NCBI RefSeq assembly: GCF_014651675.1
Contig: NZ_BMXI01000024.1
Span: 1-48,159 of the forward strand
Length of the DNA stretch: 48,159 nucleotides
Direction: 5' to 3'
Source of the DNA: Roseibacillus persicicus
Lineage (GTDB): Bacteria > Verrucomicrobiota > Verrucomicrobiia > Verrucomicrobiales > Akkermansiaceae
A program made the translations under genes and the position numbers. Position 1 is the stretch's first letter. Every line of letters starts with the position of its first letter. A model generated the notes under the pieces. It did not search any database, was not told where the DNA came from, and saw nothing but the letters and a program-made list of their open reading frames with translations. Of this stretch, positions 16,580 through 48,159 are shown one piece after another.

Positions 16580-16685
16580 GGTCTGACAAAACGAACAGAT
16601 GGAAGCCCATCTAGCAAGAGAGTCTTCCAAATTGGTCAGTCTGAGCTCTTTCCGTCAGTTGCCGAGCCCTGCCCGGGAACTCTGT

Positions 16686-34237: not shown

Positions 34238-35938
34238 ATGCATACTATCGATTGGATTGTCCTTGTCGCTTACCTTGTCGGAACCGTCTTTGTTGGCGTC
34301 TTCCTCGGACGTCTCGTCAAAAACTCCTCCGACATGTTCGCCGCTGGCGGGCAGTCCCCGTGGTGGATGAGCGGGCTCAGTGCCTTCATGACCATGTTCT
34401 CCGCCAATACCTTCGTGGTCTGGGGGGGCATTGCCTACGAGCAAGGCGCGGTCGCAGTCATCATCAACCTTTGTTACGGCATCGCGGCTCTTCTCGCGGG
34501 CTACACCGTGGCCGGCAAGTGGCGAGAAATGGGCATCGCGACCCCCGCCGAATACGTCGACAAGCGCTTCGGCCGCTCCGCGCTCCACTTCTACACCTGG
34601 TTCATGATGATCTTCCGCATCGTCGGAACCGGCGGCGCGCTCTACGCCATCGCCCGCCTCATCCTCGCCGTGGTCGCAGGAGAAGACAGTGCCGCCAACG
34701 CCGCTCTCTCCAGTCCCCAGCTCAACTTCGCCATCCTCATCTTCGCCCTCGTCGTCGTGGGCTACACCATGATTGGCGGTCTCTGGGCCGTCCTGATGAC
34801 CGATACCCTCCAGTTCATCATTCTCAATCTCGCCATCATCTTCGTGATCCCGCTCTCCCTTGCGGAAGTCGGCGGCATCAACGCCCTCGTCACCCAGACT
34901 CCGGAAGGCTTCATGAACGTGACCTCGGAGAAATACACCCTCCTCTTCCTCATCGGCTGGGTCGCCATTCACTACTTCATGATCGGCGCCGAGTGGGCCT
35001 TCGTGCAACGCAATCTCTCCGTCCCAACTCCCAAGGATGCCCGCAAAAGCAACGTCCTCTTCGGACTCCTCTACCTCTTCAGCCCCTTCCTCTGGCTCCT
35101 TCCGCCCCTCCTCTGGCGCATCCAGCAACCCATCCCCGAAGGCGCTTCCCCCGAAGCCATTACCCAAATGTCCGAGACCGCCTACATCATGTCCTGCAAG
35201 GCCGTCCTCCCCGTCGGCATGCTCGGTCTCATGATCGCCGCCCTTTTTTCCGCCACCGCCAGCATGATCAGCTCGCAGCTCAACGTCTTCTCCGGCGTCC
35301 TCACCAAAAACATCTACGAACCCCTCGCCGGCAATCCCACCGAGAAACAACTCGTCCGCATGGGCCGCATCTTTACCCTCATCCTCGGTCTCGTAATTGC
35401 CGGTATCGCCATCGCCACGCCCTACCTTGGCGGCGCGGCCAAGCTCATCATCTCGGTGACCCAAATCATGGTCACCCCTCTCCTCGCCCCCACCCTTTTC
35501 GCTCTCTTCTTCCGCAACCTCGGCATGTCCGCCATCTGGATCACCGTCGGGCTTTGCTTCCCTCTCGGCCTCCTCACCAAATTCACCAGCGTGGGAGAAG
35601 GAACCATCATCGCCGACGGCACCTTCACCGGAGTTATTCTGCCCCTCCTCGTCATCGCCGCCCTTCTTCTGCTTCAGAAAAAAGAAGCTCCCGGCTGGAA
35701 GAAAATCCAGGACCTTTCCAAACAAGCCGAGGATTCCGACGAAGCTCCCAGCTCGAGCGCCCTCCCTGCTCGCATCGTCGCCATCAGCCTCGCGGTCTGC
35801 TCCGCAACCTTCCTCATTCTCATTCCTTTCAACTCTGAAAACCAAGGCATGCTCGCTGGCTTCGGACTCACCCTCGCCGCACTTGCCGCCTTTCTCTTTT
35901 TTATTCTTCGCAAAACGACACCCACCTCATCCGAATGA
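34238..35938 (+). CDS. Sodium:solute symporter (SSS family)
   Basis: 566 residues with about 13-14 membrane spans. It begins IDWIVLVAYLVGTVFVGVFL, then SSDMFAAGGQSPWWMSGLSAF, the family signature around spans 1-2. It has TPAEYVDKRFGR and FRIVGTGGALYAIARLIL. It would take up a small organic solute with Na+, probably a sugar, sugar acid or related glycan product given the neighbours. Its TGA overlaps the ATG of the next gene (ATGA), so they are coupled. Codons are strongly C-ending (mostly CTC, CCC, GCC). Confidence 0.92.
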   Translation: MHTIDWIVLVAYLVGTVFVGVFLGRLVKNSSDMFAAGGQSPWWMSGLSAFMTMFSANTFVVWGGIAYEQGAVAVIINLCYGIAALLAGYTVAGKWREMGIATPAEYVDKRFGRSALHFYTWFMMIFRIVGTGGALYAIARLILAVVAGEDSAANAALSSPQLNFAILIFALVVVGYTMIGGLWAVLMTDTLQFIILNLAIIFVIPLSLAEVGGINALVTQTPEGFMNVTSEKYTLLFLIGWVAIHYFMIGAEWAFVQRNLSVPTPKDARKSNVLFGLLYLFSPFLWLLPPLLWRIQQPIPEGASPEAITQMSETAYIMSCKAVLPVGMLGLMIAALFSATASMISSQLNVFSGVLTKNIYEPLAGNPTEKQLVRMGRIFTLILGLVIAGIAIATPYLGGAAKLIISVTQIMVTPLLAPTLFALFFRNLGMSAIWITVGLCFPLGLLTKFTSVGEGTIIADGTFTGVILPLLVIAALLLLQKKEAPGWKKIQDLSKQAEDSDEAPSSSALPARIVAISLAVCSATFLILIPFNSENQGMLAGFGLTLAALAAFLFFILRKTTPTSSE

Positions 35939-38214
35939 TCCACCAAGACGCCTCTTCTGAAGTTCGCGAAACCAAACTCGAAACCATCTCCTGCGACTTC
36001 GTCGTCATCGGCGGCGGCCTCGCCGGAACTTGCGCTGCCATCTCTGCCGCCCGCCAAGGCATTCAAGTCACCCTCGTGCAAGACCGCCCCGTCCTCGGTG
36101 GCAACGCCTCCTCCGAAGTCCGCCTCTGGTCCCTCGGAGCCACTTCCCACATGGGCAACAACAACCGCTTCTCCCGCGAAGGCGGACTCGTCGACGAAAT
36201 CCTCGTCGAAAACACTTTCCGCAACAAAGAAGGCAACGTCCTCATCTTTGACACCATTCTGTTAGAAAAGGTTAAAAACGAACCCAACATCCGCCTTCTC
36301 CTCAACACCGCCGCCCACACCGTCGAGAAGTCCGACCCGAACACCATCTCACGCGTCCACGCTTTCTGCAGCCAGAATTCCACCCGCTACACCCTCGAAG
36401 CTCCCCTCTTCTGCGACGCTTCCGGTGATGGCATCGCCGCTTTCCAGGCCGGTGCCGCCTTCCGCATGGGAGCCGAAGATGGCAGCGAGTTCGACGAAGG
36501 CTTCGCTCCCGACGATTCCTACGGTGAGCTCCTCGGCCACACAATTTACTTCTACAGCAAGGACCTCGGCAAACCCGTCTCCTACACCGCCCCCGAATTC
36601 GCTCTCAAGGACATCACCCAGCTTCCCCGCTTCCGAAACATCGACGTCCACGACCACGGCTGCAAATTCTGGTGGCTCGAATACGGTGGCCGCCGTGACA
36701 CTGTCCACGAAACCGAGGAAATCAAATGGGAGCTCTGGAAAGTGGTCTACGGCGTCTGGGACTACATCAAAAACTCCGGCAAATTCCCCGAAGCCGAAAC
36801 CATGACTCTCGAGTGGGTCGGCACCATCCCCGGCAAACGCGAAAGCCGTCGCTTCGAAGGCGATTACATGATCAGCCAGAAAGACGTCATCGACCAAATC
36901 GAACACCACGACGCCATCTCCGCCGGTGGATGGTCCCTCGACCTTCACCCCGCCGACGCCGTCTACTCCGAACAACCCGGCTGCAACCAATGGCACTCCA
37001 AGGGTGTCTACGGCCTCCCCTACCGCTGTCACTACAGCCGCAACGTTTCCAACCTCTTCCTCGCGGGTCGCATCATCAGCTCGTCCCACGTGGCCTTCGG
37101 TTCTACGAGAGTGATCCTCACCTGCGGACACGGAGGAGTCGCCGTCGGAGCCGCTGCCGCCCAGTGCATCCACGAAAACAAAAAGCCCGCCGACCTCCTC
37201 GAACCGTCTTCTCTCAAGACTCTCCAAAACACCCTGAACATCACCGGTCAAAGCATCCCCGGCATTCCCATCGAGGACTCTTCCGACTTGGTCCTAACGG
37301 CTCAGCTCTCCGCCTCGTCCACCCTCGCCCTCACGGAAATCCCCGCCAACGACCAGTGGCTCCCACTCGAATATCCCGTCGCTCAACTCCTTCCCTTTCA
37401 GGCTGACACCAAGGTCAAAGTCACCGCCACCATCCGTGCAAAAAAGAACGCCACCATCAAAGTCGCCCTCCGCACCGCTGAGAAGCCCTACAACTACACC
37501 CCCGACCTGACTCTCGAAGAATTCGAACACGCCGTCACCGCCGGAACCCAGACCATCACCACCGAGTTCACCCAAACTCTCGGCGAAGCGAAATACGCCT
37601 TCCTCTGCTACTACGGAGACCCTGACATCGAAATCCAAACCAGTGCCGTCCTCGCCACCGGGCTCGTCTCCGTCCAAAAGAAATTTAACAAAGCGGTCTC
37701 CAACGACGGCGAACAAATTCCGCCCGAAGGCATCGGCATCGACCGCTTCGAATTCTGGGTCCCCAACCGCCGCCCCGCCGGCCAAAACCTCGCCCTCCGA
37801 CTCGACCCTGCCCTCCCGGCCTACAGTTTGGAGCACCTGAAAAACGGTTACACTAAACCTTGGATCGCATCCAACGCCTGGGCTGCCGACCTTTCCGACG
37901 AAAAACCGCGAATCGACCTCGCTTGGGAATCACCGCAGACCATTTCAAAAATCACCCTCTACTTCGACACCGACTACGACCACGCCATGGAAACCTCCCA
38001 GTGGGGTCACCCCGAGAACCTCATGCCTCACTGCGTTCGCAGCTACCGCATCCTCGATGAACACGGCACCGTCCTCCATTCCTGCGAAGCGAACCACCAG
38101 ACTATTAACCGCATCGCTCTCGACTCCCCCGTCACCACTTCGAAGCTCACCCTCGAAATCGACCACCCCTCCGCAACCGTCCCCGCCGCCCTCTTCAAAA
38201 TCTCATGCCACTAA
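35935..38214 (+). CDS. FAD-dependent oxidoreductase with C-terminal beta-sandwich
   Basis: 759 residues. The N-terminal FAD-binding Rossmann motif is VVIGGGLAGTCAAISAARQG (glycines at 26-31). RPVLGGNASSEVR and DASGDGIAAFQAGA follow, as in the FAD_oxidored family. The second half (about 435-759) lacks FAD motifs. It contains a beta-rich part and a discoidin-like end (RIDLAWESPQTISKITLYFD). No signal peptide is seen. It could oxidise a sugar or sugar derivative; the reaction is unknown. It is coupled to the symporter and followed by the GH2 gene with 10 nt overlap if the first ATG is used. Confidence 0.87.
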   Translation: MIHQDASSEVRETKLETISCDFVVIGGGLAGTCAAISAARQGIQVTLVQDRPVLGGNASSEVRLWSLGATSHMGNNNRFSREGGLVDEILVENTFRNKEGNVLIFDTILLEKVKNEPNIRLLLNTAAHTVEKSDPNTISRVHAFCSQNSTRYTLEAPLFCDASGDGIAAFQAGAAFRMGAEDGSEFDEGFAPDDSYGELLGHTIYFYSKDLGKPVSYTAPEFALKDITQLPRFRNIDVHDHGCKFWWLEYGGRRDTVHETEEIKWELWKVVYGVWDYIKNSGKFPEAETMTLEWVGTIPGKRESRRFEGDYMISQKDVIDQIEHHDAISAGGWSLDLHPADAVYSEQPGCNQWHSKGVYGLPYRCHYSRNVSNLFLAGRIISSSHVAFGSTRVILTCGHGGVAVGAAAAQCIHENKKPADLLEPSSLKTLQNTLNITGQSIPGIPIEDSSDLVLTAQLSASSTLALTEIPANDQWLPLEYPVAQLLPFQADTKVKVTATIRAKKNATIKVALRTAEKPYNYTPDLTLEEFEHAVTAGTQTITTEFTQTLGEAKYAFLCYYGDPDIEIQTSAVLATGLVSVQKKFNKAVSNDGEQIPPEGIGIDRFEFWVPNRRPAGQNLALRLDPALPAYSLEHLKNGYTKPWIASNAWAADLSDEKPRIDLAWESPQTISKITLYFDTDYDHAMETSQWGHPENLMPHCVRSYRILDEHGTVLHSCEANHQTINRIALDSPVTTSKLTLEIDHPSATVPAALFKISCH

Positions 38215-41200
38215 ATTTCATGCGCTCACTCCTCATCCTCCTCATCCTCCTCGCCACCCTCTCCCTCGTCTCAACTGCTTGGGGAACTGAGCAAACTGAG
38301 GAAAAACTGCCTCTGAATGGCGACTGGAAGTTCTACGCCATCTACGGCGAAGGCTCGAACTACATGCAGATTCAGGAATCGGAGACGGACCTTGTCATCG
38401 ACAACAAGAATCCGAATGTCGAAGCGAAGGGATCCTGGCGAAGCTTGCAACAGGGAGAGCGAAATTCGAAATTCTATGGCGAGGACTACCAGCAGCACTC
38501 CTTCACGCTAACAAGCCTGAAGGGAGGGAACAAAGAAGACGATTCCTACTTCCGGTTTTATCCCAAGTTCGAAAAGTCGGGCTACTACGAAGCCTTCAAC
38601 TTCTATCCTTTCGCCTCCCACCTAACTACCCAATACAACGTAAAGCACGCCGGAGGAATCACGACCCAATACCTGAGCCAACGCGTCTTCTGCAACGAAT
38701 GGAACAGCCTGGGCATTTACCGCTTCGACAAGGATGAGGAAAACTATGTCGAGCTCACCGCGATTGTCAGCGGAGCGGTGGCCGCAGACGCGGTGATGTT
38801 CCGCGAGATTTCCGAAGAGAAATATCTCCAGGCCAAGCAGGAGCCGGATCAGGTCTATCGTCGCGACTTTGATGATGCAGACTGGCACGATTTGGAAGTC
38901 CCCGGGCACTGGGGCATGCTCAATGAGTTTTCAAACTACACCGGAAAAGCCTGGTATCGAAGGACGATCGAGCTTCCTGATGATTGGAAGAAGCAACCCG
39001 ACGAGAGATATTATTTGAAGTTCGGCGGGGTCTATCACCTGTCCACCGTTTATCTGAATGGAAAGCTTATCGGCAAGCAACGAGGCGGTTTCACTCCCTT
39101 CGAGTTTGATGTCACCGATGCCTTGGACTTTGACGGAAAAAACGTGCTCGCGGTTCAAGTTGATAACAGTGCGGTCGTAGGTGCGACCTGGAACTGGGGC
39201 GGCATCATTCGTGATGTCAGTCTCACGAAGAATCACGACGTCCGCATCGACTACCAATACATTTACGCCGAGCCCGACCTCACAACTGGAGCCGCAAAAC
39301 TGACGCTCAAGGTGCGGATTGAGAACAATTCTTCCGAAACAAGGACCATCAAGGTCGACTCCCGAATTAAGGACGGCGAGGAAATTGCTGCTTTGAAAGG
39401 CTCCATCCAAATCGAACCGAACTCGCAGGAGGATGTGGTGTTAGAGACTGTGCTCGATCCTTCCTTGGTTAAACTCTGGCACTTTGATCACCCCAAGCTG
39501 TATCAAATCGAAACCACGATTTCCGAAAGCGAAAAACTCCTGCACCGCAAAGACGATCACTTCGGTATTCGAAAAGTCGAGCTCACCGATTCCCAGCTGC
39601 TCCTGAACGGCGAACCGGTGCGTCTGGCTGGATACAACCGGGTGAGTGAGCACCGCTACTGGGGCTCATCCGAGCCGCTGCATGTGTTGGAAGAAGACGT
39701 CGACCTCATGAAAGAAGCCGGCGCCAACTTCATGCGAATCATGCACGGGACCCAAGACAAAAAGCTCTTCGACGTCTGCGACCGAAAAGGAATTCTGATC
39801 TTCGAGGAAGCGAATGTGCGGGACTTGGACAACGACGAGTTTCGAGCCAACTACTATCCCGTTGCTCAGCTGGAGAAAGAGAAAGGAATCACTCTCAACC
39901 CGGAGGAAGAGGAGATCCTCATCCTCGACGAACCCTACGTGAAGCTTCGGGATGAGCATGGCGCTGAGGTCACCGAGAAGAACTATTTCCTTTCGAAATA
40001 TTGGCTCAAGGGAATGATCGAGCGCGATCTCAACCACCCCTGCATCATCGGCTGGAGTGTCGGCAACGAGCTGAACAACCATTTCGAATACGGGAAGGCA
40101 GCCATGGCCTACGTCAAGGAAGAGCTCGACCCCTATCGCCTCGTTACCTGCGTGAGCAACTCCGGGCAAAAGGAGGAATACACCCCCGAGACGGACCCCA
40201 ACACCTTCGTCGATCTCATCATGCACAACATGTATCGCTGGCAGGGTGAACCGCAGGAGATCTTGAACACACTCCGGACGAAGTGGCCGGACAAGCCCGT
40301 CTTTATCTCCGAGTTTGGATTCGACCCCTTTCCTTCGACTGCGCTCGACGGCGATAAGGAGATTTTCTCCGAGTGGACGAACAACTTCCGCGACAAAAAC
40401 GAGTTCGTGATCGGAACTTCGATGTGGACCTTCAATGACTACCGCAGCGCCTATGCCGGAACCACCGCCGAGGAAAATCGCGTCTGGGGCGTCATCAATT
40501 CTTGGCGCCAGAAGCGACGCTTGTTCGACCGCATCAAGAAGGAGCACGCCTCGGTTAAAGGAATTGAAGTGAGCAATCTCAATCTCGAAACAGGAACTGC
40601 CGATGTCAGCATGCCAATTCGTGGCGAGCGGGATTACCCAAGCCATGCCATGCGTGGCTACAAGTTGCGCTACCAGTTTACGGACACGAAAGGAAAGGTG
40701 ACTTTTAGCGATGCCATTGCCCTTCCGGACATCCAGCCGACGGACGGCGAGTGGAATGGCTCCATCAAATGGGAGGGCGACCAGTCCGACGCCTTGGACC
40801 TCACGCTGAGCCTCATCGCTCCCACCCAATACTCGCGACTCGACCAGACGATCTCATTTCAAAACGCACTCACTCCAGAGATTTCCGAGGTCCTTCCTGG
40901 CAAAAATTCCGTCAGAGTTCTCTTCGATGCCGTGCCCAATGCGACCGAATACTTTGTGACCTACGAAGGCTCAGATGGCGAAGTTCACGAATCCTACAAG
41001 ACCATCGAGAATCGCATCGACGTGGAAGGTTTAGAAGAAGGGAAAAGTTACTCCTTCCGCTTGCTCGCCCTCAACGACAAGGGAAACAGCGAGCCCTCGA
41101 CGGCGGTCAAGGCAACGGTCGGAAAAAACGAACTTCCTCCCATCATCTGGGACTCCTTCATCACAGGCGACAAGCTCGTGATTGGTTATTCCAGTGACTT

Positions 41201-41390
41201 TGACGATGGCGACTACACCGTGAAATATGGCGCATCTCAAGATAACCTGAATCAGGAGTTTGTCTCCAATGTGAGAGGCATGATGTCCATCGACTTGCAA
41301 GGCCAAGACGAGGTTTTCTTCAAAATGAAGCGCGGTGTTGAGTCTGGCGAAAGCCACTGGTCGGAGACCGTCAAAGCAACCCGACGCTAA
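38205..41390 (+). CDS. Secreted glycoside hydrolase family 2 enzyme with additional N- and C-terminal domains
   Basis: 1061 residues. The ATG at 38205 overlaps the previous gene by 10 nt. A second ATG at 38220 starts the signal peptide directly (RSLLILLILLATLSLVS). The first 230 residues form an extra beta-rich domain that interrupts a sugar-binding-like start (LPLNGDWKFYAIYG). GH2 proper follows: FGGVYHLSTVYLNGKLIG, ATWNWGGIIRDVSL, HPCIIGWSVGNELNNHF with acid/base E622, and VFISEFGFDPF with nucleophile E703. C-terminal domains are FN3-like (VRVLFDAVPNATEYFVTYEG). It probably acts as an exo-beta-glycosidase (galactosidase or glucuronidase type). Codon use is more mixed than in the neighbours, so it may have a different history. 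Confidence 0.92.
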   Translation: MPLNFMRSLLILLILLATLSLVSTAWGTEQTEEKLPLNGDWKFYAIYGEGSNYMQIQESETDLVIDNKNPNVEAKGSWRSLQQGERNSKFYGEDYQQHSFTLTSLKGGNKEDDSYFRFYPKFEKSGYYEAFNFYPFASHLTTQYNVKHAGGITTQYLSQRVFCNEWNSLGIYRFDKDEENYVELTAIVSGAVAADAVMFREISEEKYLQAKQEPDQVYRRDFDDADWHDLEVPGHWGMLNEFSNYTGKAWYRRTIELPDDWKKQPDERYYLKFGGVYHLSTVYLNGKLIGKQRGGFTPFEFDVTDALDFDGKNVLAVQVDNSAVVGATWNWGGIIRDVSLTKNHDVRIDYQYIYAEPDLTTGAAKLTLKVRIENNSSETRTIKVDSRIKDGEEIAALKGSIQIEPNSQEDVVLETVLDPSLVKLWHFDHPKLYQIETTISESEKLLHRKDDHFGIRKVELTDSQLLLNGEPVRLAGYNRVSEHRYWGSSEPLHVLEEDVDLMKEAGANFMRIMHGTQDKKLFDVCDRKGILIFEEANVRDLDNDEFRANYYPVAQLEKEKGITLNPEEEEILILDEPYVKLRDEHGAEVTEKNYFLSKYWLKGMIERDLNHPCIIGWSVGNELNNHFEYGKAAMAYVKEELDPYRLVTCVSNSGQKEEYTPETDPNTFVDLIMHNMYRWQGEPQEILNTLRTKWPDKPVFISEFGFDPFPSTALDGDKEIFSEWTNNFRDKNEFVIGTSMWTFNDYRSAYAGTTAEENRVWGVINSWRQKRRLFDRIKKEHASVKGIEVSNLNLETGTADVSMPIRGERDYPSHAMRGYKLRYQFTDTKGKVTFSDAIALPDIQPTDGEWNGSIKWEGDQSDALDLTLSLIAPTQYSRLDQTISFQNALTPEISEVLPGKNSVRVLFDAVPNATEYFVTYEGSDGEVHESYKTIENRIDVEGLEEGKSYSFRLLALNDKGNSEPSTAVKATVGKNELPPIIWDSFITGDKLVIGYSSDFDDGDYTVKYGASQDNLNQEFVSNVRGMMSIDLQGQDEVFFKMKRGVESGESHWSETVKATRR

Positions 41391-41432
41391 CAAGGTGTCC
41401 TCGCAAATCACTCTTCTCTCAAATCAAGAATC

Positions 41433-43325
41433 ATGAAAACACTCGCACTCCTGCTTCTCACCACCCTCTCCCTCTTCGCCTCCCAAACAGGTCAATGGAC
41501 CCAGTCCCTCGACGGCGAGTGGCGTTTCACCAAAGTCTTCAACCCTAGCGAAGACGACTGGTCCCCGATCACCGTCCCAGGCAACTGGGACTCCACCGAG
41601 GAACACAAGGACCACCGTGGCATCGGCTGGTATCAGCGCGAGTTTACCCCCGACTCATCCCTCCAAAACAAACCCCTCCGCCTCCGCTTCGAAGCCGTCT
41701 ACCACGAGGCCGAAGTCTTCCTGAACGGCGAGCGCCTCGGCTCCCACATCGGCGGCTACACCCCCTTCGAATTCGAAGTCACCGAGAAAGTCATCTTCAA
41801 CCAGCCCAACATCCTCACCGTCCGCGCCGATAACACCTACCAACGCGGTGCTTGGTGGCCATGGGGTGGCATTAGCCGAAGCGTCAACCTCATCGCCAAC
41901 AATCCTCTCCGCCTCGTCTGGCAACACATCCGCACCGAACCCGATCTCGAAGCGGGCACCGCCGAAGTCTTCGTCAAATACCGCATCGAAAACAAAACCG
42001 ACGCCGAAACCATCACCCTTCTGAACTCCACTCTCCCCGGCGATTCTGTTCCTCGCCTCAAGACATGGGTGAAAGTCGCACCCAACAGCACCAAGGACCG
42101 CGAAGTCTCATTCACTCTTTCCAAAGACGAAGTCCGCCTCTGGCACTTCGACTTCCCCGAGCTCTACACCCTCAACACCGAACTCCTTTTCGGAGGCAAA
42201 CTCCAACACGCCATCAGCGACCGCTTCGGTATCCGCAAAATCGAAGTTACCCCTACGTCCTTCCTTCTCAATGGCGAATCGGTCCGCCTCGTCGGCTTCA
42301 ACCGCGTCTCCGACGACCACGGCCCCTCGGGCAACACCGAACCCATCGAACTTCTCCGCAAGGACATCGACCTCATGAAACAAGCGGGCTGCAACATGAC
42401 CCGCATCATGCACTACCCCCAGCACCCTGACCTCCTCCGTCTCTGCGACGAAAAAGGCATCCTCCTCATCTGCGAAATTCCCGTCTGGCAACACGACCCA
42501 CAAATCATTCGCGACAACCCCCTCACCAAGCAGTGGCTCACCGAGATGATCCACCGCGACTACAACCACCCTTCCATCATCGGCTGGAGCGTCGGCAATG
42601 AAATGTATGACTTCTACCCCTACGCCATCAGCATGATGAGTTTCATTCGCAAGGAGCTCGACCCTCACCGCCTCGTCTCCTACGTCAGCCACCTCGCCTT
42701 CCAAAAACAAGGTGCCGACGAGCCCATCAACGAAACCGACATCGCCCTCATCAACTTCTATAACAACTGGGCCGGCTTCACCGAAATCGTCTCCGAACGC
42801 TGGCCGGACAAAGCCATCTTTGTCTCCGAATTCGGGCACAAACAGGAAAAGCCCAACGGCCACTTCATGGATGGCTTCGAAGAGATGTGGCACAAGCTCA
42901 CCACCGACCGACCCCGCCTCGTCGGCGTCTCCCTCTGGACCTTCAACGACTATCGCAGCGACTATAAAGGCACCCCCGAGCACGGCTACCGCACCTGGGG
43001 CGTCGTTGATGAAAAACGCAACCTCAAGCCCTGCTACTACACCATTCGTAAACTCTACAGCCCCCTCCAAGTCCTCAAGGTCGACAACGGCACCCTCACC
43101 GTCCAAACCCGCCAACCCACCCAGACCCCATCGTACCCGTTGCGCGGCTACAAAATCCTCTGGGAAAACGGCGAACTAGCCGGAGAACTCAAACTCCCCA
43201 CCCTCCACCCCGGCGACCCCGCCCACACCCAACAACTCCCTTCTGAAGCCGGTCCCACCCCTACTCTCCACCTCATTACCCCCCTCGGTTACAAAATCGA
43301 CGACACCAAGTTCAACCAGTCTTGA
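41433..43325 (+). CDS. Secreted glycoside hydrolase family 2 enzyme, compact form
   Basis: 630 residues with a signal peptide (KTLALLLLTTLSLFA). It has the standard GH2 order: sugar-binding domain (SLDGEWRFTKVFNPSEDDW, FEAVYHEAEVFLNGERLG), Ig-like domain, and TIM barrel. The barrel has IIGWSVGNEMYDFYP (acid/base E390) and IFVSEFGHKQE (nucleophile E466). It lacks the extra domains of the preceding GH2. It follows that gene by 42 nt and is probably in the same transcript. Codons are strongly C-ending, like the symporter and the oxidoreductase. Confidence 0.93.
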   Translation: MKTLALLLLTTLSLFASQTGQWTQSLDGEWRFTKVFNPSEDDWSPITVPGNWDSTEEHKDHRGIGWYQREFTPDSSLQNKPLRLRFEAVYHEAEVFLNGERLGSHIGGYTPFEFEVTEKVIFNQPNILTVRADNTYQRGAWWPWGGISRSVNLIANNPLRLVWQHIRTEPDLEAGTAEVFVKYRIENKTDAETITLLNSTLPGDSVPRLKTWVKVAPNSTKDREVSFTLSKDEVRLWHFDFPELYTLNTELLFGGKLQHAISDRFGIRKIEVTPTSFLLNGESVRLVGFNRVSDDHGPSGNTEPIELLRKDIDLMKQAGCNMTRIMHYPQHPDLLRLCDEKGILLICEIPVWQHDPQIIRDNPLTKQWLTEMIHRDYNHPSIIGWSVGNEMYDFYPYAISMMSFIRKELDPHRLVSYVSHLAFQKQGADEPINETDIALINFYNNWAGFTEIVSERWPDKAIFVSEFGHKQEKPNGHFMDGFEEMWHKLTTDRPRLVGVSLWTFNDYRSDYKGTPEHGYRTWGVVDEKRNLKPCYYTIRKLYSPLQVLKVDNGTLTVQTRQPTQTPSYPLRGYKILWENGELAGELKLPTLHPGDPAHTQQLPSEAGPTPTLHLITPLGYKIDDTKFNQS

Positions 43326-43379
43326 GAGAGAGTCCCATGAGTCCACAAAACAGGCTCCCTTGGGGTTCCAAAACTCAAC

Positions 43380-43734
43380 TCACGGCATCGACGGCACCAG
43401 CGGCGGCTCATACCCTGAATCCAAGGCTTTCTTCGGCACCGCCTCCTTGAAGAACCCGTCCCTCGCTTTGTGATACTTTTTATAAGGCATCAAACGGCAC
43501 GGGACATTGTGCTCATTCCACGCCTCCCACAGGCCGCGCAGACGCTTCGCCTCTCCCGCCTTTTTTTCTAACAAATCATCTGTCTCCGCGACATCATCCG
43601 GCAGATGATATAAGCATGGCCCCTTCCATGGCAGGTCCATAGCCCATATCATCGGCCATAAACACAATCACGTTGAGCCTCTCTCCAAAGGCCACCATAC
43701 CAGAAGTCGCCAAGCACATCAAAAGTCGTCTCAT
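43380..43734 (-). pseudogene. Gutted sulfatase: N-terminus joined out of frame to C-terminus
   Basis: From the ATG at 43734 the sequence reads MRRLLMCLATSGMVAFGER, then LNVIVFMADDMGYG, a sulfatase signal peptide and first metal motif. Right after it the sequence becomes the sulfatase C-terminus in another frame: PWKGPCLYHLPDDVAETDDL, then GLWEAWNEHNVPCRLM and a normal end at 43380. The whole catalytic core, including the Cys motif, is missing. It is a deletion derivative, not a functional gene. The minus-strand 43649-43960 frame in the same area is a shadow. Confidence 0.8.
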
Positions 43735-43755
43735 TACAAAAAAGTATGTCTCTGG

Positions 43756-43788
43756 AGGTCTTTGATTTGCATCCTAAAAGCCCATTCG
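43756..43788 (+). repeat. Duplicated leader sequence, copy 1
   Basis: AGGTCTTT (43756-43763) is followed by ATTTGCATCCTAAAAGCCCA and TTCG (43765-43788). This matches 22 of 24 positions of 46202-46225 before the sulfatase at 46246. Beyond the match, both copies continue with a C-rich stretch and then CTCCAT near the start position. Confidence 0.55.
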
Positions 43789-43825
43789 GCCCCAGCACTC
43801 CTCCATCAACGAGAAGGGGTGAGTG

Positions 43826-43879
43826 GAGTGGCCGTCTCGTCCACTCATCTTGATTAAAGGGTGGACGAGACGTCCACCC
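43826..43879. repeat. REP-like pair of palindromes
   Basis: Unit A (43826-43846) has arms GAGTGG and CCACTC around a GTCTC core. Unit B (43859-43879) has arms GGGTGGAC and GTCCACCC around GAGAC. The cores are inverted copies of each other, so the two units look like a head-to-head REP/BIME pair. No REP transposase is nearby. Confidence 0.6.
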
Positions 43880-44101
43880 CATTCGCGCGATCGCTTCAGC
43901 GAAAAGGTCTTTGCCGATTCTCTTCTCCTGTTTCAGACGACTTCTCCGTCGAAAAGACACGCTCTAGGCTAGGCTCTACAATAACTGACCGTGGTTCAGT
44001 GCCCACACCTCGGGGCACCAACTTCACCCCGCCCCCACCAACAGAAAACCAAAACCATTGGTGTTGCGCGACATGAATTTCCCCCTCTCAGACCTCTCAA
44101 C

Positions 44102-45964
44102 TCAGGGAAGGCTCAACTTTCCATCATTGGCCCCTTCGGCAAATTTTTCAGCACGGAAGACTTCGGTGCCCAGCGCTTTGTTATCCCCCCAATCGACCTC
44201 GATGCGACCGTCGCCGATAACAATGTCGATTAGCTTCTTCTTCATCTTCATAGCCACCTCTTGGTGCTCTTCGTCGAAGGCGAGGTTCTTGACCTCCTTC
44301 GGGTCACTTGGGAAATGATATAAGCCAGGATCCAAATCAGCGTAATCAGCTTTCACGGCCCAATGCATCTTTTCGCCGCGCTTGATGTTGGGCCGGGTTT
44401 TCATCGAGAAGCAATAGTCCTTGGTCCGAATAAAGGCGCGGGGACCAGTCGCAGCATGGCTTTCTCCAACAACATATTCGCGAGGTGGCAACTCACCGGA
44501 AGCGACTTCTTCCAAGTTCCGCCCGTCGAGATAGGAGTAGGTTTCGGTCGCAAGATCCGCTCCCCCAGCCGCCAGCATGGTGGGAGCCAGGTCGACGAAC
44601 TCGGTGAAACTCTTCACCACTTTCCCCGCCGGGAAAGCTTCCTTATCCGAGGAGACGACGACCACGGGGTTTAGCGTATCGATGCGCCACGGGGTGGTCT
44701 TGGAGACCGAACCGTGGTCATTCAACTTCCACCCATGGTCGCCACAAACGTAAACCACCATCCATTCCTGCTCCTTCTTCTCACTGTAATCGACGAAGGC
44801 CTTCACCGCACTTCCCACCAAGGAATCTCCATAGGCGCAGTAGGCATAGTAGTCCTGAATCATGGCCAACTTCTCCGAATCCGGAAAGTGATCAGTAAAC
44901 CCATTCTCGACCGCGTTGCGCATTTGCCTAGGCATCGTTTCCAGCTCGTCGCCGATCACTTCTGGAATTTTATACTCCTTTTTCTGGAAGCGCTTGCGGT
45001 AGCTCGGTGGCGGTAGGACAGGGGTATGCGGGAAGTCGAACCCGAGATGCGCAAAAATAGGTTTGGAGGAATCCACTCCCTGAAAAGTACGCGAGCCAGC
45101 GGTGAATTCTTTGCCTTCGCTTGCCAAGAAGTCTCCGAGAATTTGCTCGTAGTAGGCATCCTGAGTTTCTCCTGCCGGTCGGGGACTGACTCCAGCCAGA
45201 ATCATGCCTTTGTCGAGATGAGTGCCCTTGCGTTTATTATAGTGCCGCAAGATATCATACCTTTCGTTCGCAGCCTTGGTCTTGCCCGCGTTCTCGGGAA
45301 ACATTTCTTCGTATCTGAGGGAAAGATAGGTAAAGCCATCTTCCGGGGTGTAAAAGTACTCCACGTTCTGGAGTGGCTCCGCCAATTTTTTCCCTTCGAT
45401 TTCATAGAACCAGCTCTTTCCCCAAGCGGTTAATCCGTCGAGGTGCAATTGCTTGAAGCCAACACTTTGCTCGTAGGGAATCGACCCTTTCGACCACTTG
45501 CCTCCTTCCTGAATTTCCTTCAGCCGAAAGCCCATCTTTCCTACATGGAAGGTTTGATAACCCAGGTCGGCCATCCGCTCTGGCAAGGTCGATTGCCAAT
45601 GCGCGGCACTACGGTTGTGATACTCGAACTGATACACGCCCGAGTGCCATGGATAGCGCCCAAAGTGCATCGCAGCGCGCGAGGGCGCGCAAACTGCCGA
45701 ATGGCAATAGGTGTTGATGAAGGTGGTTCCCTGCTCAACCAGCTTATCGACCTCCGGTGACTCAACGTAGCCGAGCTCACTCATCTCCCGCCCATCGATT
45801 ATACGATTGAAAGCTCGAATGGAATCGTAGCGCTGATCATCAGTTACAATCCACAATACATTGGACTGGGGCTTCTCTCCGCCTTCCAAGCTCAAGGCCG
45901 TAGATAGACCAACCCCACCCATCATGGCGAGGACCGCCATCAAACTCCGATTCTTCTCTCTCAT
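44102..45964 (-). CDS. Secreted sulfatase (iduronate-sulfatase-like)
   Basis: 620 residues from the ATG at 45964; the frame extends to 46012 without gain. Signal sequence (SLMAVLAMMGGVGLSTALS). Motifs are VLWIVTDDQRYDSIRAFN (metal), CAPSRAAMHFGRYPWHSG with Cys92, HVGKMGF, FAHLGFDFPHTPVLPP and CGDHGWKLNDHG. The HFGRYP layout fits iduronate-2-sulfatase-like or choline-sulfatase-like families rather than arylsulfatase A. It is divergent from the next sulfatase and faces the gutted sulfatase. It should act outside the cytoplasm on a sulfated glycan. Confidence 0.92.
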   Translation of the reverse strand: MREKNRSLMAVLAMMGGVGLSTALSLEGGEKPQSNVLWIVTDDQRYDSIRAFNRIIDGREMSELGYVESPEVDKLVEQGTTFINTYCHSAVCAPSRAAMHFGRYPWHSGVYQFEYHNRSAAHWQSTLPERMADLGYQTFHVGKMGFRLKEIQEGGKWSKGSIPYEQSVGFKQLHLDGLTAWGKSWFYEIEGKKLAEPLQNVEYFYTPEDGFTYLSLRYEEMFPENAGKTKAANERYDILRHYNKRKGTHLDKGMILAGVSPRPAGETQDAYYEQILGDFLASEGKEFTAGSRTFQGVDSSKPIFAHLGFDFPHTPVLPPPSYRKRFQKKEYKIPEVIGDELETMPRQMRNAVENGFTDHFPDSEKLAMIQDYYAYCAYGDSLVGSAVKAFVDYSEKKEQEWMVVYVCGDHGWKLNDHGSVSKTTPWRIDTLNPVVVVSSDKEAFPAGKVVKSFTEFVDLAPTMLAAGGADLATETYSYLDGRNLEEVASGELPPREYVVGESHAATGPRAFIRTKDYCFSMKTRPNIKRGEKMHWAVKADYADLDPGLYHFPSDPKEVKNLAFDEEHQEVAMKMKKKLIDIVIGDGRIEVDWGDNKALGTEVFRAEKFAEGANDGKLSLP

Positions 45965-46182
45965 CACAATTACTAGATTTCTCGTTATTCGGCCAAGCGC
46001 GTGGGGAACCAATCAACAGTCCCCTAAAACTCAGCCCACTCAGGTCACAACCGATACGTCATGGAACCCAGAAAATTGCGCTGTAATGAACTAAAATTTA
46101 ATTTTTCTGCAATAAAGCATCCTATTTTGGCTTAGCCCCGTCTTCTCTCAACAACGGAGATCACGGCATTGCTAAAAGAAGC

Positions 46183-46225
46183 AGGTCTTTAGCGCCCCTT
46201 AATTTGCATCCGAAAAGGCCATTCG
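46183..46225 (+). repeat. Duplicated leader sequence, copy 2
   Basis: AGGTCTTT (46183-46190), an 11-nt interval, then ATTTGCATCCGAAAAGGCCA and TTCG (46202-46225). It lies directly upstream of the sulfatase ATG at 46246 and matches copy 1 at 43765-43788 in 22 of 24 bases. Confidence 0.55.
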
Positions 46226-46245
46226 CACATCTCCCCCGATACTCC

Positions 46246-47895
46246 ATGAATCATCGCTCTTCTCTCTACGCCTTCCTGGCTACCATTGCAGCCCCATTCG
46301 GACTCCTCACCTCCTCCCAAGCCGAGCGCCCCAACATCATCTTCATCCTCACCGACGACCACCGCCAGACCGACCTCGGTTGCTATGGCAACGACATCGT
46401 CCGAACGCCGAACATCGACAAGATGGCCGAAGAAGGAGTCCTCTTCGAAAATGCCTCCATCACCTCCGCCATCTGCACCCCCAGCCGCATCAGCTACTTT
46501 CTTGGCCAATACGAGCGCAAGCACGGCGTCAACTTCAACTCCGGCACCGCCATCTCCCAATCCGCTTGGGCAAAAAGCTACCCCGTCATCCTCCGCGAAA
46601 ATGGCTACTTCACCGGTTATGTCGGCAAAAATCACGCCCCCATCGGCGCCCGCGGTTACGAGACCGGCATCATGGACGCCTCCTTCGACTACTTCTACGC
46701 CGGCCACGGCCACATTCGCTTCTACCCCAAACAAGTACATCAAATTTTCCAACACGCCAAAAACGACACCCAGGTTGAACTCATCCAAGAAGGCGTCACC
46801 GAGTTCCTCACACCCGAGCAACCCTCCTATCTCGGCGGAGCACAAAAGTTCCTCTCCGCCCGCCCCAAGGACCAGCCCTTTTGCCTCAGCATCTGCCTCA
46901 ACGTTCCCCACGGCGCCAGCACCGAATCCATGAAGCTTCTCCCCACCGACCCCGAGCTCTACCGCACCGCCTACCGCGACCAAATCGAAACCCTCCCCCT
47001 CCCCCCCAACTACCTCGCTAAAGCCGACATCGAGACCCCCAAACTCCCCGCCGACATTCTTCACACCGACTACCGACAGAATGGCTACGACTGGGCCGAC
47101 ACCCCCGCCACCACCCGCGAGCGCCGCGTCCGGCATTACCAAACCATCACTGGCATCGACCGCATGGTCGGCAAGATCCGCGAACAACTCGAGCAACTCA
47201 ATCTGACTGAAAACACCCTCATCGTCTTCTCATCCGACCACGGCCTCTTCGCCGGCGAACAAGGCCTCGGCGGCAAAGCTCTCAACTACGAGGTCTGCCT
47301 CGCCGTCCCCTTCATCGTCTACGACCCACGCCTCCCCAAGGAGAAACGCGGCCAGCGCCGCACGGAACTCGTCCAATCCATCGACCTCGCCCCCACCCTC
47401 CTCGACCTCGCCAACCTCGATCCCGAGCCCTCCATGCAAGGCGAAAGCATCCTCCCCCTCCTCACTGAGGAAGACCCCGCCTGGCGCACCCACGCCTTCG
47501 CCGAAAATCTCTGGTCCACCTACTTCGGCAATCCTCGCGTCGAATCCGTCCGCACCGAACGCTGGAAATACATCCGTTACTTCAAGAACGATCGCAACAA
47601 CTGGAAGGACCTCGAAGGAGCCAAAGGCGTCCGCCTCTACCAAGTTTCCTCCAAACAGCGCAAACTCTACAACCACTGGCGAGCCGCCTCCGTCAACGGA
47701 GAACAACCCGTCTACGAAGAACTCTACGACCTCGCCAACGACCCCCACGAAACAATCAACCTAGTAGACAACGAGAAACACTCGACCACCCTCGTCGAGC
47801 TTCGCGAAAGATGCCAGCAATCCGTCACCCAAGCCTATGACAACACCCCCACCGCCTCAGTTGTCCCCCTCACCCCTGGCACCGATTCAAAATAG
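46246..47895 (+). CDS. Secreted sulfatase
   Basis: 549 residues from the ATG at 46246, directly before the signal peptide (SSLYAFLATIAAPFGLLTSS). The frame could start at 46204, but that region is repeat sequence. Motifs are NIIFILTDDHRQTDLGCYG; ICTPSRISYFLGQYERKHG with Cys77 as the formylglycine precursor; YVGKNHAP; and FSSDHGLFAGEQGLGGKALN. The C-terminal YEELYDLANDPHETINL marks the usual end of the fold. It acts on a sulfated substrate in the periplasm or outside. Codons are strongly C-ending, like the symporter and compact GH2. Confidence 0.93.
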   Translation: MNHRSSLYAFLATIAAPFGLLTSSQAERPNIIFILTDDHRQTDLGCYGNDIVRTPNIDKMAEEGVLFENASITSAICTPSRISYFLGQYERKHGVNFNSGTAISQSAWAKSYPVILRENGYFTGYVGKNHAPIGARGYETGIMDASFDYFYAGHGHIRFYPKQVHQIFQHAKNDTQVELIQEGVTEFLTPEQPSYLGGAQKFLSARPKDQPFCLSICLNVPHGASTESMKLLPTDPELYRTAYRDQIETLPLPPNYLAKADIETPKLPADILHTDYRQNGYDWADTPATTRERRVRHYQTITGIDRMVGKIREQLEQLNLTENTLIVFSSDHGLFAGEQGLGGKALNYEVCLAVPFIVYDPRLPKEKRGQRRTELVQSIDLAPTLLDLANLDPEPSMQGESILPLLTEEDPAWRTHAFAENLWSTYFGNPRVESVRTERWKYIRYFKNDRNNWKDLEGAKGVRLYQVSSKQRKLYNHWRAASVNGEQPVYEELYDLANDPHETINLVDNEKHSTTLVELRERCQQSVTQAYDNTPTASVVPLTPGTDSK

Positions 47896-47930: not shown

Positions 47931-48159
47931 GGCTCTTCATCAAAGATTGGGGACATGAGGCGATAAAGCCATTATGTCCCCGATGTTTAATCACCTAAAG
48001 ATAGGCCTGAAGGGTTACGACCCCCTTCAGGATTCCTACCATAACGGCCTGTATATTCATGTCGAGCTGAAGCCTGCTCTTGAGCCTAAGCGCTGTCCCT
48101 ATTGCCAATGCTCAAGGCTTCTGAGCAAAGGTCGATATCAACGCAAAGTTCGTCACTTG
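47931..48159 (+). mobile_element. Left end of an ISL3-family insertion sequence
   Basis: GGCTCTTCATCAAAGATTGG at 47931 matches the GGCTCTTC-type terminal repeat of ISL3 elements. GGGGACAT (47949-47956) and ATGTCCCC (47974-47981) also form an inverted pair at the transposase start. The 8 bp before it, ACCCAACC, would be the target duplication if the element is intact. The right end is outside the window. Confidence 0.7.
47974..48159 (+). CDS. ISL3-family transposase, N-terminal part (runs off the window)
   Basis: The frame is open from the ATG at 47974 to the end, 62 residues. It begins SPMFNHLKIGLKGYD and has the zinc-finger cysteines CPYCQC near residue 42, followed by the basic GRYQRKVRHL. 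This is the expected ISL3 N-terminus, which binds the terminal repeats. The catalytic DDE domain would follow outside the window. Confidence 0.78.
   Translation, partial: MSPMFNHLKIGLKGYDPLQDSYHNGLYIHVELKPALEPKRCPYCQCSRLLSKGRYQRKVRHL

Follow-up and report, generated by a model that had tools for sequence, protein, structure and literature searches.

Published Verrucomicrobiota MAGs contain gene clusters resembling polysaccharide utilisation loci (PUL-like clusters), in which glycoside hydrolases (GHs), sulfatases and symporters are co-located and from which SusC/SusD (SusCD) is absent (PMC8857213). In Zobellia galactanivorans, the carrageenan-induced PUL ZGAL_3629-3638 comprises S1_28 and S1_30 sulfatases, GH2, GH28, GH29 and SusCD (PMC5698469), and an agarose pathway using GH2, GH16 and GH117 has been described (PMC5849685). 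FAD enzymes that act on glycosides are represented by the GMC/AA3 oxidoreductases (PMC6950322, PMC10646112).

The locus described here lies in a 48,159-nucleotide stretch of the Roseibacillus persicicus genome (the window). Like the Verrucomicrobiota clusters it has co-located GHs, sulfatases and a symporter and no SusC/SusD, but those clusters are described around GH29 (and rhamnosidases), and the main text describing them does not contain the word oxidoreductase (PMC8857213). The Zobellia PUL likewise has two S1 sulfatases with GH2, GH28 and GH29, the families found around relatives of the two window sulfatases (S5 and S6) in other genomes, and S5 has an S1_30 structure among its PDB matches; it differs in carrying SusCD and in the lack of a named sodium symporter (SSF) or flavoenzyme in its description, and our S5 and S6 are placed in S1 only (PMC5698469). 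GH2, GH16 and GH117 genes, the families of the agarose pathway (PMC5849685), adjoin the SSF-FAD pair in marine relatives, and one window enzyme, GH2b, matches the GH2 structure 5t98, whereas the window's genome gave no GH117 match. The FAD enzyme of the locus, whose glycan role is putative, belongs to a flavin family other than that of the GMC/AA3 enzymes, namely PF12831, with a predicted GR2-type fold (PMC6950322, PMC10646112). We read the locus, with a probability of about 0.6, as a compact cluster for sulfated-glycan catabolism that has a conserved SSF and PF12831 core and combines galactan-type hydrolysis, import and sugar oxidation; the cluster probably digests sulfated algal-type sugars.

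Gene content and layout

Four genes are packed on the + strand at 34238-43325. The run opens with an SSF Na+:solute symporter (34238-35938; PF00474, E 3e-34), followed by a FAD-dependent oxidoreductase with a CBM32-like C-terminal domain (35935-38214; PF12831, E 7.9e-86) and two GH2 enzymes, GH2a (38205-41390, 1061 residues; GH2 barrel Pfam E 5.8e-30) and GH2b (41433-43325, 630 residues; E 6.9e-34). The FAD gene overlaps the SSF gene by 4 bases and the GH2a gene overlaps the FAD gene by 10 bases, with a gap of 42 bases between GH2a and GH2b. Outside the run, and divergently transcribed, are two S1-type sulfatases, S5 (44102-46012, − strand; PF00884, E 2.5e-29) and S6 (46204-47895, + strand, likely ATG at 46246; E 3.8e-44), while a decayed sulfatase (about 43360-43740, − strand) lies in between. 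S5 and S6 carry the motifs CAPSR and CTPSR, instances of C-x-P-S-R, which we take to be the S1 sulfatase motif, and with PF00884 these place both in S1. The original prediction of a coupled symporter, FAD oxidoreductase and two GH2 genes, two divergent sulfatases and a third, 'gutted' one was borne out throughout: each gene of the run was found in its place with Pfam scores well above cut-off, S5 and S6 are intact in sequence and motif, and the third is real, surviving as two pieces in separate frames.

Conservation of the SSF-FAD pair and its neighbours

Relatives of the FAD enzyme are encoded on at least 589 stretches in one scan, and we surveyed the loci of the best 80, mostly Bacteroidota, with counts taken from homology-supported gene calling and adjacency meaning the next kept gene. 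A same-strand SSF was present at 65 of the 80 loci and directly adjoined the FAD gene at 56 (40 upstream, 16 downstream). As a control within 1.5 kb flanks (shorter at contig ends), an SSF was found beside 7 of 14 orthologues as against 0 of 15 paralogues (36-45% identity); at one orthologue scored negative (G115) the SSF gene lies two genes further out. At fifteen loci no SSF was seen, and 10 of these reach more than 5 kb to either side. The Lentisphaerae locus has no SSF, and neither do two of the five loci identified as Verrucomicrobial from their titles. The cluster did not come together by chance: the SSF-FAD pairing recurs in distantly related bacteria. We found no description of this pair in the literature searched, and its recurrence with an unstudied flavin enzyme across distant bacteria makes it a good target in the search for a new sugar-breakdown step. 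The window SSF has its best PDB matches in the SSF 5nv9 and in sodium/glucose cotransporters. One homologue adjoining a FAD gene (L095) is 78% identical to it, but paired SSFs range from 31% to 78% identity, so the sugar imported may vary from locus to locus.

GH2-like genes occurred at 27 of the 80 loci and sulfatase-like genes at 20. Representatives of neighbour clusters matched GH117, GH16, GH97, a SusC-like receptor, SusD and LacI; the GH16-like protein had no PDB match at E 1e-10, and a Pfam scan of clusters 13, 23, 26, 29 and 41 returned no families. At four Chloroflexi loci the FAD gene is accompanied by sulfatases, a galactonate-dehydratase-like protein, an aldolase of the DHDPS family and an importer of ABC type; a Gfo/Idh/MocA gene is also found there.

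Linkage of sulfatases to the FAD gene recurs in fewer genomes than the SSF-FAD pairing. Among 14 FAD-positive genomes picked for marine or Verrucomicrobial clusters, best matches to S5 (55-61% identity) were found in seven and to S6 (52-61%) in 10. An S6 orthologue lies 9-17 kb from the FAD gene in five other genomes, one of which, Maribacter L124, has an incomplete or broken S6; in Flavicella the two are about 1.35 Mb apart. In a phylum sample of 287 genomes, three had both orthologues, 11 the FAD gene only, three S6 only (G087, G210, G023) and 270 neither (Fisher p 0.0017, with identity limits for 'orthologue' fixed after the hits were seen and kin genomes not independent). Around S5 and S6 in other genomes (about 10 kb) are also found GH28, GH29, GH3 and GH2.

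The original prediction had staked itself on conservation of the gene order in other genomes, and on that point it is supported, such conservation having been found: SSF-FAD, SSF-FAD-GH2a at five loci, and the S6 linkage all recur. Conservation of the whole order within the phylum sample, by contrast, we reject, the GH2a matches listed being weak and the sole congener sampled (G237) having no FAD match at E <= 1e-20. With sulfatases, GHs and a transporter co-located and recurring elsewhere, the locus has the layout of a PUL-like sulfated-glycan cluster without SusCD.

Absence of SusC/SusD

No SusD (PF07980) was found in the whole genome, and of 14 control genomes Bacteroides alone matched. SusC (TIGR04056) gave no match over cut-off in the genome, where a single match reached 20.7 bits against a cut-off of 368; four of the 14 controls matched, Bacteroides included, one of them over cut-off. 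The locus is thus not a PUL in the SusC/SusD-defined sense. The absence that had been singled out is real, and genome-wide, but it is not distinctive: SusC-like genes stand at 34 of the 80 FAD loci, and Verrucomicrobiota MAGs in print lack SusCD likewise (PMC8857213). We therefore reject it as a special trait, which corrects the idea that missing SusCD marks a special pathway. The proposal that a symporter takes the place of a TonB system is not supported either, since many relatives carry a SusC-like gene together with the SSF, and the SSF, as an inner-membrane carrier, is uninformative on the outer-membrane step.

The flavoenzyme and the GH2 enzymes

The FAD enzyme scores 289 bits against PF12831 (curated cut-off 27) and belongs to that family, for which the literature search led to flavoproteome work only. 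In its predicted model (mean pLDDT 85.3) the N-terminal part matches Thi4, GidA and flavocytochrome c, indicating a GR2-type fold, and the C-terminal part matches CBM32-like modules (Z about 17), which suggests contact with glycans. No GMC model was among seven Pfam matches at E <= 0.001, which places the enzyme outside AA3/GMC, and the 50 listed structural rows contain no GMC or other sugar-oxidase fold, although structure by itself would leave room for one; nearly all rows shown in a PDB sequence search span just the N-terminal dinucleotide-binding motif. Export was judged from crude hydropathy plus N-termini read by eye. On this basis the FAD enzyme has no evident signal peptide, although hydropathy alone does not separate it (1.79, due to the Rossmann motif) from S6 (2.0), and hydrophobic N-termini indicate that GH2a and GH2b are both probably exported.

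Both GH2 enzymes retain the glutamate motifs GWSVGNE and SEFG, presumably catalytic, and are members of GH2. In GH2a, Pfam places a Golvesin_C-type domain before the GH2 core and an fn3 domain near the C-terminus; GH2b is 43% identical to part of it. The best PDB match of GH2b is 6ed1 (E 4e-58), with a further match to 5t98 (E 4e-46), which we take to be the GH2 of the agarose pathway (GH2, GH16, GH117). For both enzymes the top NCBIfam model is beta-galactosidase GalA, at 229-230 bits and far under the equivalog cut-off of 900, and they are probably exo-beta-galactosidases or close kin. GH2a orthologues (48-66% identity over 96-99%) stand alongside SSF-FAD at five of the 80 loci, all in Flavobacteriaceae and all with GH117/GH43-like genes. 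In the phylum sample, setting aside the genome's own GH2b, no match listed exceeded 38% identity, and the best-scoring one outside the genome was 33% identical. In a GH2 tree, where some of the distant rows are flagged for long branches and for letter composition, GH2a nests inside a Flavobacteriaceae clade, and the gene has probably crossed between Flavobacteriaceae and Verrucomicrobiota.

Proposed pathway and alternatives

We infer the polymer type, the identity of the imported sugar, the place of each step and the site, substrate and reaction of the oxidation as follows. Outside the cytoplasm, exported S5 and S6 would remove sulfate from sulfated galactan-like oligosaccharides, which exported GH2a and GH2b would cut. 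The symporter would carry a small sugar product through the inner membrane, and the cytoplasmic flavoenzyme with its CBM32-like domain would oxidise it; the likeliest product is a lactone or an aldonate entering a dehydratase/aldolase route, a link that stands on the four loci of one phylum (Chloroflexi). The earlier suggestion that the FAD enzyme works on a sugar intermediate fits its CBM32-like part and these Chloroflexi neighbours; of the original prediction as a whole, conservation and a sugar-acting flavoenzyme are retained, and the special status of SusC/SusD absence and the replacement of TonB are not.

The alternatives overlap with one another and with this reading, so their odds do not sum to one. 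It is quite possible, at a little below even odds, that the same machinery serves a non-galactan polymer (fucan, ulvan-type or host glycan) and that other cluster genes give the relatives their red-algal look. An agar-type substrate is not established, nor is the agar pathway evident, because the genome has no GH117 match at E <= 1e-5 to a flavobacterial query that found matches in two of four other genomes; GH117 is present, too, in clusters predicted to act on fucose polysaccharides (PMC6298971). In the PDB, S6 matches best to 6hr5 (E 3e-61), deposited as an alpha-L-rhamnosidase/sulfatase (GH78), S6 neighbourhoods elsewhere include GH29, and many FAD relatives come from Pedobacter, Chitinophaga and similar bacteria, not known here as marine. 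A galactan is favoured by the beta-galactosidase models that both GH2s score best against, albeit far below cut-off, and by the GH117/GH43-like company of all five GH2a orthologues.

Separate transcripts for the sulfatases, with a decayed gene between, would suit a different arrangement, in which an SSF-FAD-GH2-GH2 operon needing no desulfation merely neighbours sulfatases for other glycans. Proximity is cheap in a genome with 84 sulfatase-domain matches, S6 occurs without FAD in three genomes of the phylum, and only a quarter of the FAD loci (20/80) hold a sulfatase-like gene; yet the 9-17 kb linkage in five other genomes, the FAD-S6 co-occurrence and the sulfatases of the Chloroflexi loci make it unlikely. 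We consider it more improbable still that the flavoenzyme acts on the uncleaved glycoside, where it would oxidise a ring hydroxyl (3-keto type) and so allow an elimination to break the bond. Flavin-dependent glycoside 3-oxidation is known in the GMC superfamily (PMC10646112), the CBM32-like domain suggests glycan contact, the Chloroflexi loci hold a Gfo/Idh/MocA gene, and a 3-keto-disaccharide hydrolase domain (PF06439) is encoded in the same window; the fold, however, is GR2-type with no GMC domain matched, the enzyme lacks an evident signal peptide whereas the GH2s look exported, and PF06439 was not among the families of 40 selected locus proteins scanned with Pfam.

If our reading of a sulfated-glycan cluster holds, a widespread flavoenzyme family gains its first functional frame, acting on what its partner transporter imports, and sulfated-glycan use gains an oxidation step that could serve in place of NAD(P)-linked sugar dehydrogenases; such units would also be seen moving between Flavobacteriaceae and Verrucomicrobiota. 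More tentatively, with odds somewhat below even, the SSF and CBM32-tailed PF12831 enzyme may form a mobile unit, so far undescribed, that takes up and oxidises one class of uncommon sugar. Bacteroidota and Verrucomicrobiota would share this unit, an ABC-type importer would replace the SSF in Chloroflexi, and the unit would be plugged into different glycan clusters, its flavoenzyme performing a flavin sugar oxidation of a kind new to glycan catabolism.

Sulfatase remnants and fusions

The N- and C-terminal pieces of the decayed sulfatase, whose middle is missing, were searched separately against the proteins of 102 stretches and the four window sulfatases. Both had the same best match, a 478-residue sulfatase from a Pelagicoccus mobilis genome, with the N-terminal piece aligning to its residues 16-34 (E 9e-6) and the C-terminal piece to residues 404-472 (E 1.6e-20). 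The second PDB match of S5 is 9ihk, the S1_30 structure. About 18 kb from the locus, the protein at 14480-16630 fuses its PF06439 domain (E 1.4e-35) to a sulfatase.

Gene organization and genomic context

The cluster is real, conserved and functionally coherent. It is of a known kind, a SusCD-free sulfated-glycan cluster, and its most interesting part is the core formed by the genes for a Na+ symporter (SSF, 34238-35938) and a PF12831 flavoenzyme (FAD, 35935-38214). These are followed, likewise on the plus strand, by two GH2 genes, GH2a (38205-41390) and GH2b (41433-43325). The first three genes overlap by 4 and then 10 bases and a 42-base gap precedes the fourth, a packing as tight as in an operon. 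The 3' side of this four-gene run holds a decayed sulfatase gene (~43360-43740, minus strand) and two genes for S1-type sulfatases, S5 (44102-46012, minus) and S6 (46204-47895, plus; likely ATG at 46246). The domains are intact, as are the motifs of the sulfatases and the glutamate motifs of the GH2 enzymes. By crude hydropathy and inspection, the hydrophobic N-terminal stretches of GH2a, GH2b, S5 and S6 read like export signals, and in the FAD protein the dinucleotide-binding region comes right at the N-terminus. Among the matches listed, SSF and FAD have their closest named relatives (78% and 74% identity respectively) in an uncultured Verrucomicrobiales MAG.

The window is the entire contig, from a genome of 5.28 Mb with 84 sulfatase-domain matches. 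Both contig ends seem to carry insertion-sequence transposase genes (1-504, minus, where HTH domains were found; ~47980-48159, plus, judged by inspection alone), so the cluster may extend past the right end. Elsewhere in the window, the gene at 19595-22342 (plus) lies directly 5' of a further sulfatase gene (22423-24267, plus); its product, of 915 residues, combines DUF6797, DUF7133-like and plastocyanin-type domains.

The decayed sulfatase survives as two pieces in different frames, both of which have as best match, within the set searched, the start and end of a 478-residue sulfatase from Pelagicoccus mobilis. This intact relative in another genome adjoins an S5 orthologue (59%), which makes the decayed gene a relic of the same type of neighbourhood. 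A 23-base direct repeat with two variable positions flanks S5 (43766-43788 and 46203-46225), its copies lying near where the decayed sulfatase and S6 begin. These are the only two copies genome-wide (at most one mismatch over 21 bases; 0 expected from window shuffling), and the repeat may have a regulatory role or be the scar of a recombination event.

Conservation of the symporter-flavoenzyme core

Conservation of the cluster in other genomes is borne out by a scan of GTDB genomes with an alignment of 13 FAD orthologues (51-65% identical to that of the window), from which we took the best 80 loci of a longer list. Gene calling and clustering placed an SSF homologue in 65 of the 80, on the FAD strand every time and directly adjoining FAD in 56 (40 upstream, 16 downstream). 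Record titles are mostly Bacteroidota, together with Verrucomicrobiota (5), Chloroflexi (4), Lentisphaerae (1), Thalassovita (1) and 'uncultured bacterium' (2). As a control within 1.5 kb flanks in the phylum sample, SSF lies beside 7 of 14 FAD orthologues versus 0 of 15 paralogues from the same Pfam family (36-45% identity). The 15 loci lacking SSF include three with less than 1.5 kb on one side (L110, L117, L151), the Lentisphaerae locus, two of the five Verrucomicrobial loci (L160, L172) and four Chloroflexi loci with an ABC-type importer (solute-binding protein and two permease genes) ~2-9 kb before FAD. Frequent neighbours, labelled by cluster representatives, are a LacI-type cluster (35 loci), a SusC-like TonB receptor (34), SusD (31) and the main GH2 cluster (24).

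The original prediction also had the cluster using a symporter rather than a TonB system, a contrast that does not hold up. SusD is absent from the window's genome, and no SusC match there exceeds the cut-off. PMC8857213 describes its Verrucomicrobiota MAGs as devoid of SusCD and presents PUL-like units lacking the pair; the contrast therefore does not set the cluster apart from its phylum peers. In addition, many relatives carry SSF together with a SusC-like gene. We found no description of the SSF-PF12831 flavoenzyme pair in the literature outside subscription papers and supplements; a legend in PMC5698469 includes 'fumarate reductase/succinate dehydrogenase' among gene abbreviations for carrageenan clusters.

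A second, shorter PF12831 flavoprotein (~600 residues) occurs in five of the 80 loci (L121, L134, L144, L148, L149; PF12831 E 3e-63 for the copy at 5306-8247 of L144) and adjoins a ~360-residue protein with no Pfam match in four of them. Three Pedobacter loci (L104, L113, L122) have three tandem copies of a ~530-residue protein, then a 1136-residue protein and FAD, neither of the first two proteins having a Pfam match.

Origin of GH2a

A full-length GH2a orthologue accompanies SSF and FAD in five of the 80 loci, from an uncultured Flavobacteriaceae (66% identity), Flavicella sediminum (54%), Lutibacter citreus (53%), an uncultured Aquimarina (50%) and Maribacter (48%), each of which additionally has a second GH2 as well as GH117/GH43-like genes. 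The alignment with these Flavobacteriaceae orthologues spans 96-99% of GH2a, in which a Golvesin_C-type domain (residues 64-200) precedes the GH2 core. The best-scoring match outside its own genome in the 288-genome phylum sample is 33% identical, with none above 38% among the matches listed. In a maximum-likelihood tree of 25 rows, the window's GH2a has L115 as its neighbour (100/100) inside the Flavobacteriaceae clade and is nested in sets of five (98/97) and six rows (100/100). This nesting supports a probable transfer of GH2a across phyla, with a closer unsampled source possible given that the rows came from FAD loci and the best phylum matches.

Sulfatases and substrate

Among 14 FAD-positive genomes of our own selection, S6 has a match (E <= 1e-60) in 10 and S5 (E <= 1e-40) in seven, the best matches being 52-61% and 55-61% identical respectively; the 61% S6 match is partial and one other has an internal stop. 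An S6 orthologue lies 9-17 kb from FAD in five other genomes (three Maribacter, Lutibacter citreus and G081), that of Maribacter L124 being incomplete or broken; the distance is ~1.35 Mb in Flavicella, and the remaining genomes with both have them on separate contigs. For these distances, contigs were taken as the same one when their lengths were equal. Of 287 genomes of the phylum, the FAD orthologue is present in 14, S6 in six and both in three (Fisher p 0.0017, with orthologue limits set post hoc and genomes that are non-independent). Cluster representatives in 22 stretches around S5 and S6 counterparts in 14 genomes include GH28, GH29, GH3, GH2 and more sulfatases, families that overlap with those of the carrageenan-induced PUL ZGAL_3629-3638 (GH2, GH29, two GH28, S1_28 and S1_30, as given in PMC5698469).

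Marine Flavobacteriia relatives have GH117 and GH16 genes within the same cluster, company that points to red-algal galactans; predicted fucose-polysaccharide clusters also hold GH117, according to PMC6298971. A flavobacterial GH117 query has no match in the window's genome and does match in Pelagicoccus and Maribacter. The four GH16 matches of the window's genome are all on other contigs. We thus infer that agar itself is a less likely substrate than a sulfated galactan that lacks anhydro-L-galactose or some other sulfated glycan rich in beta-galactosides.

Structure and possible reaction of the flavoenzyme

An AlphaFold2 model of the FAD enzyme (44 sequences; mean pLDDT 85.3, pTM 0.88) has two parts by structural search. 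Residues ~15-440 match GR2-type flavoproteins with almost equal scores: Thi4 (Z 17.4, rmsd 3.1, 201 aligned), GidA (Z 16.7, rmsd 4.4, 277 aligned) and flavocytochrome c (Z 16.4, rmsd 4.4, 231 aligned). Residues ~449-759 match CBM32-like modules, namely 2xqx, whose title names CBM32 (Z 16.4, rmsd 2.8, 135 aligned), and 4zxe, which we take to be CBM32-like (Z 17.1, rmsd 1.9, 123 aligned). Invariant in all 44 rows are, among others, GGN-SSEVRLW (55-65), NNNR (75-78), REGG (81-84) and PGKRESRRF-G (299-309).

The sole direct clue to the type of reaction comes from the Chloroflexi loci (L150, L168, L171, L173), whose gene order around FAD is near-identical: ABC-type importer, sulfatases, two PhyH genes, FAD, a galactonate-dehydratase-like gene, a DHDPS-family aldolase, a glycogen phosphorylase-like gene and an ArfA-like GH. 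The galactonate-dehydratase-like gene encodes an enolase-superfamily protein with galactonate dehydratase as best model (210 bits, under the cut-off of 311), and this company hints at an aldonate route. Oxidation of the 3-keto type is kept alive as an alternative by a gene ~18 kb upstream in the same window (14480-16630, minus), in which a 3-keto-disaccharide hydrolase domain (PF06439, E 1.4e-35, residues 37-210) is fused N-terminally to a sulfatase (PF00884, E 2.3e-52).
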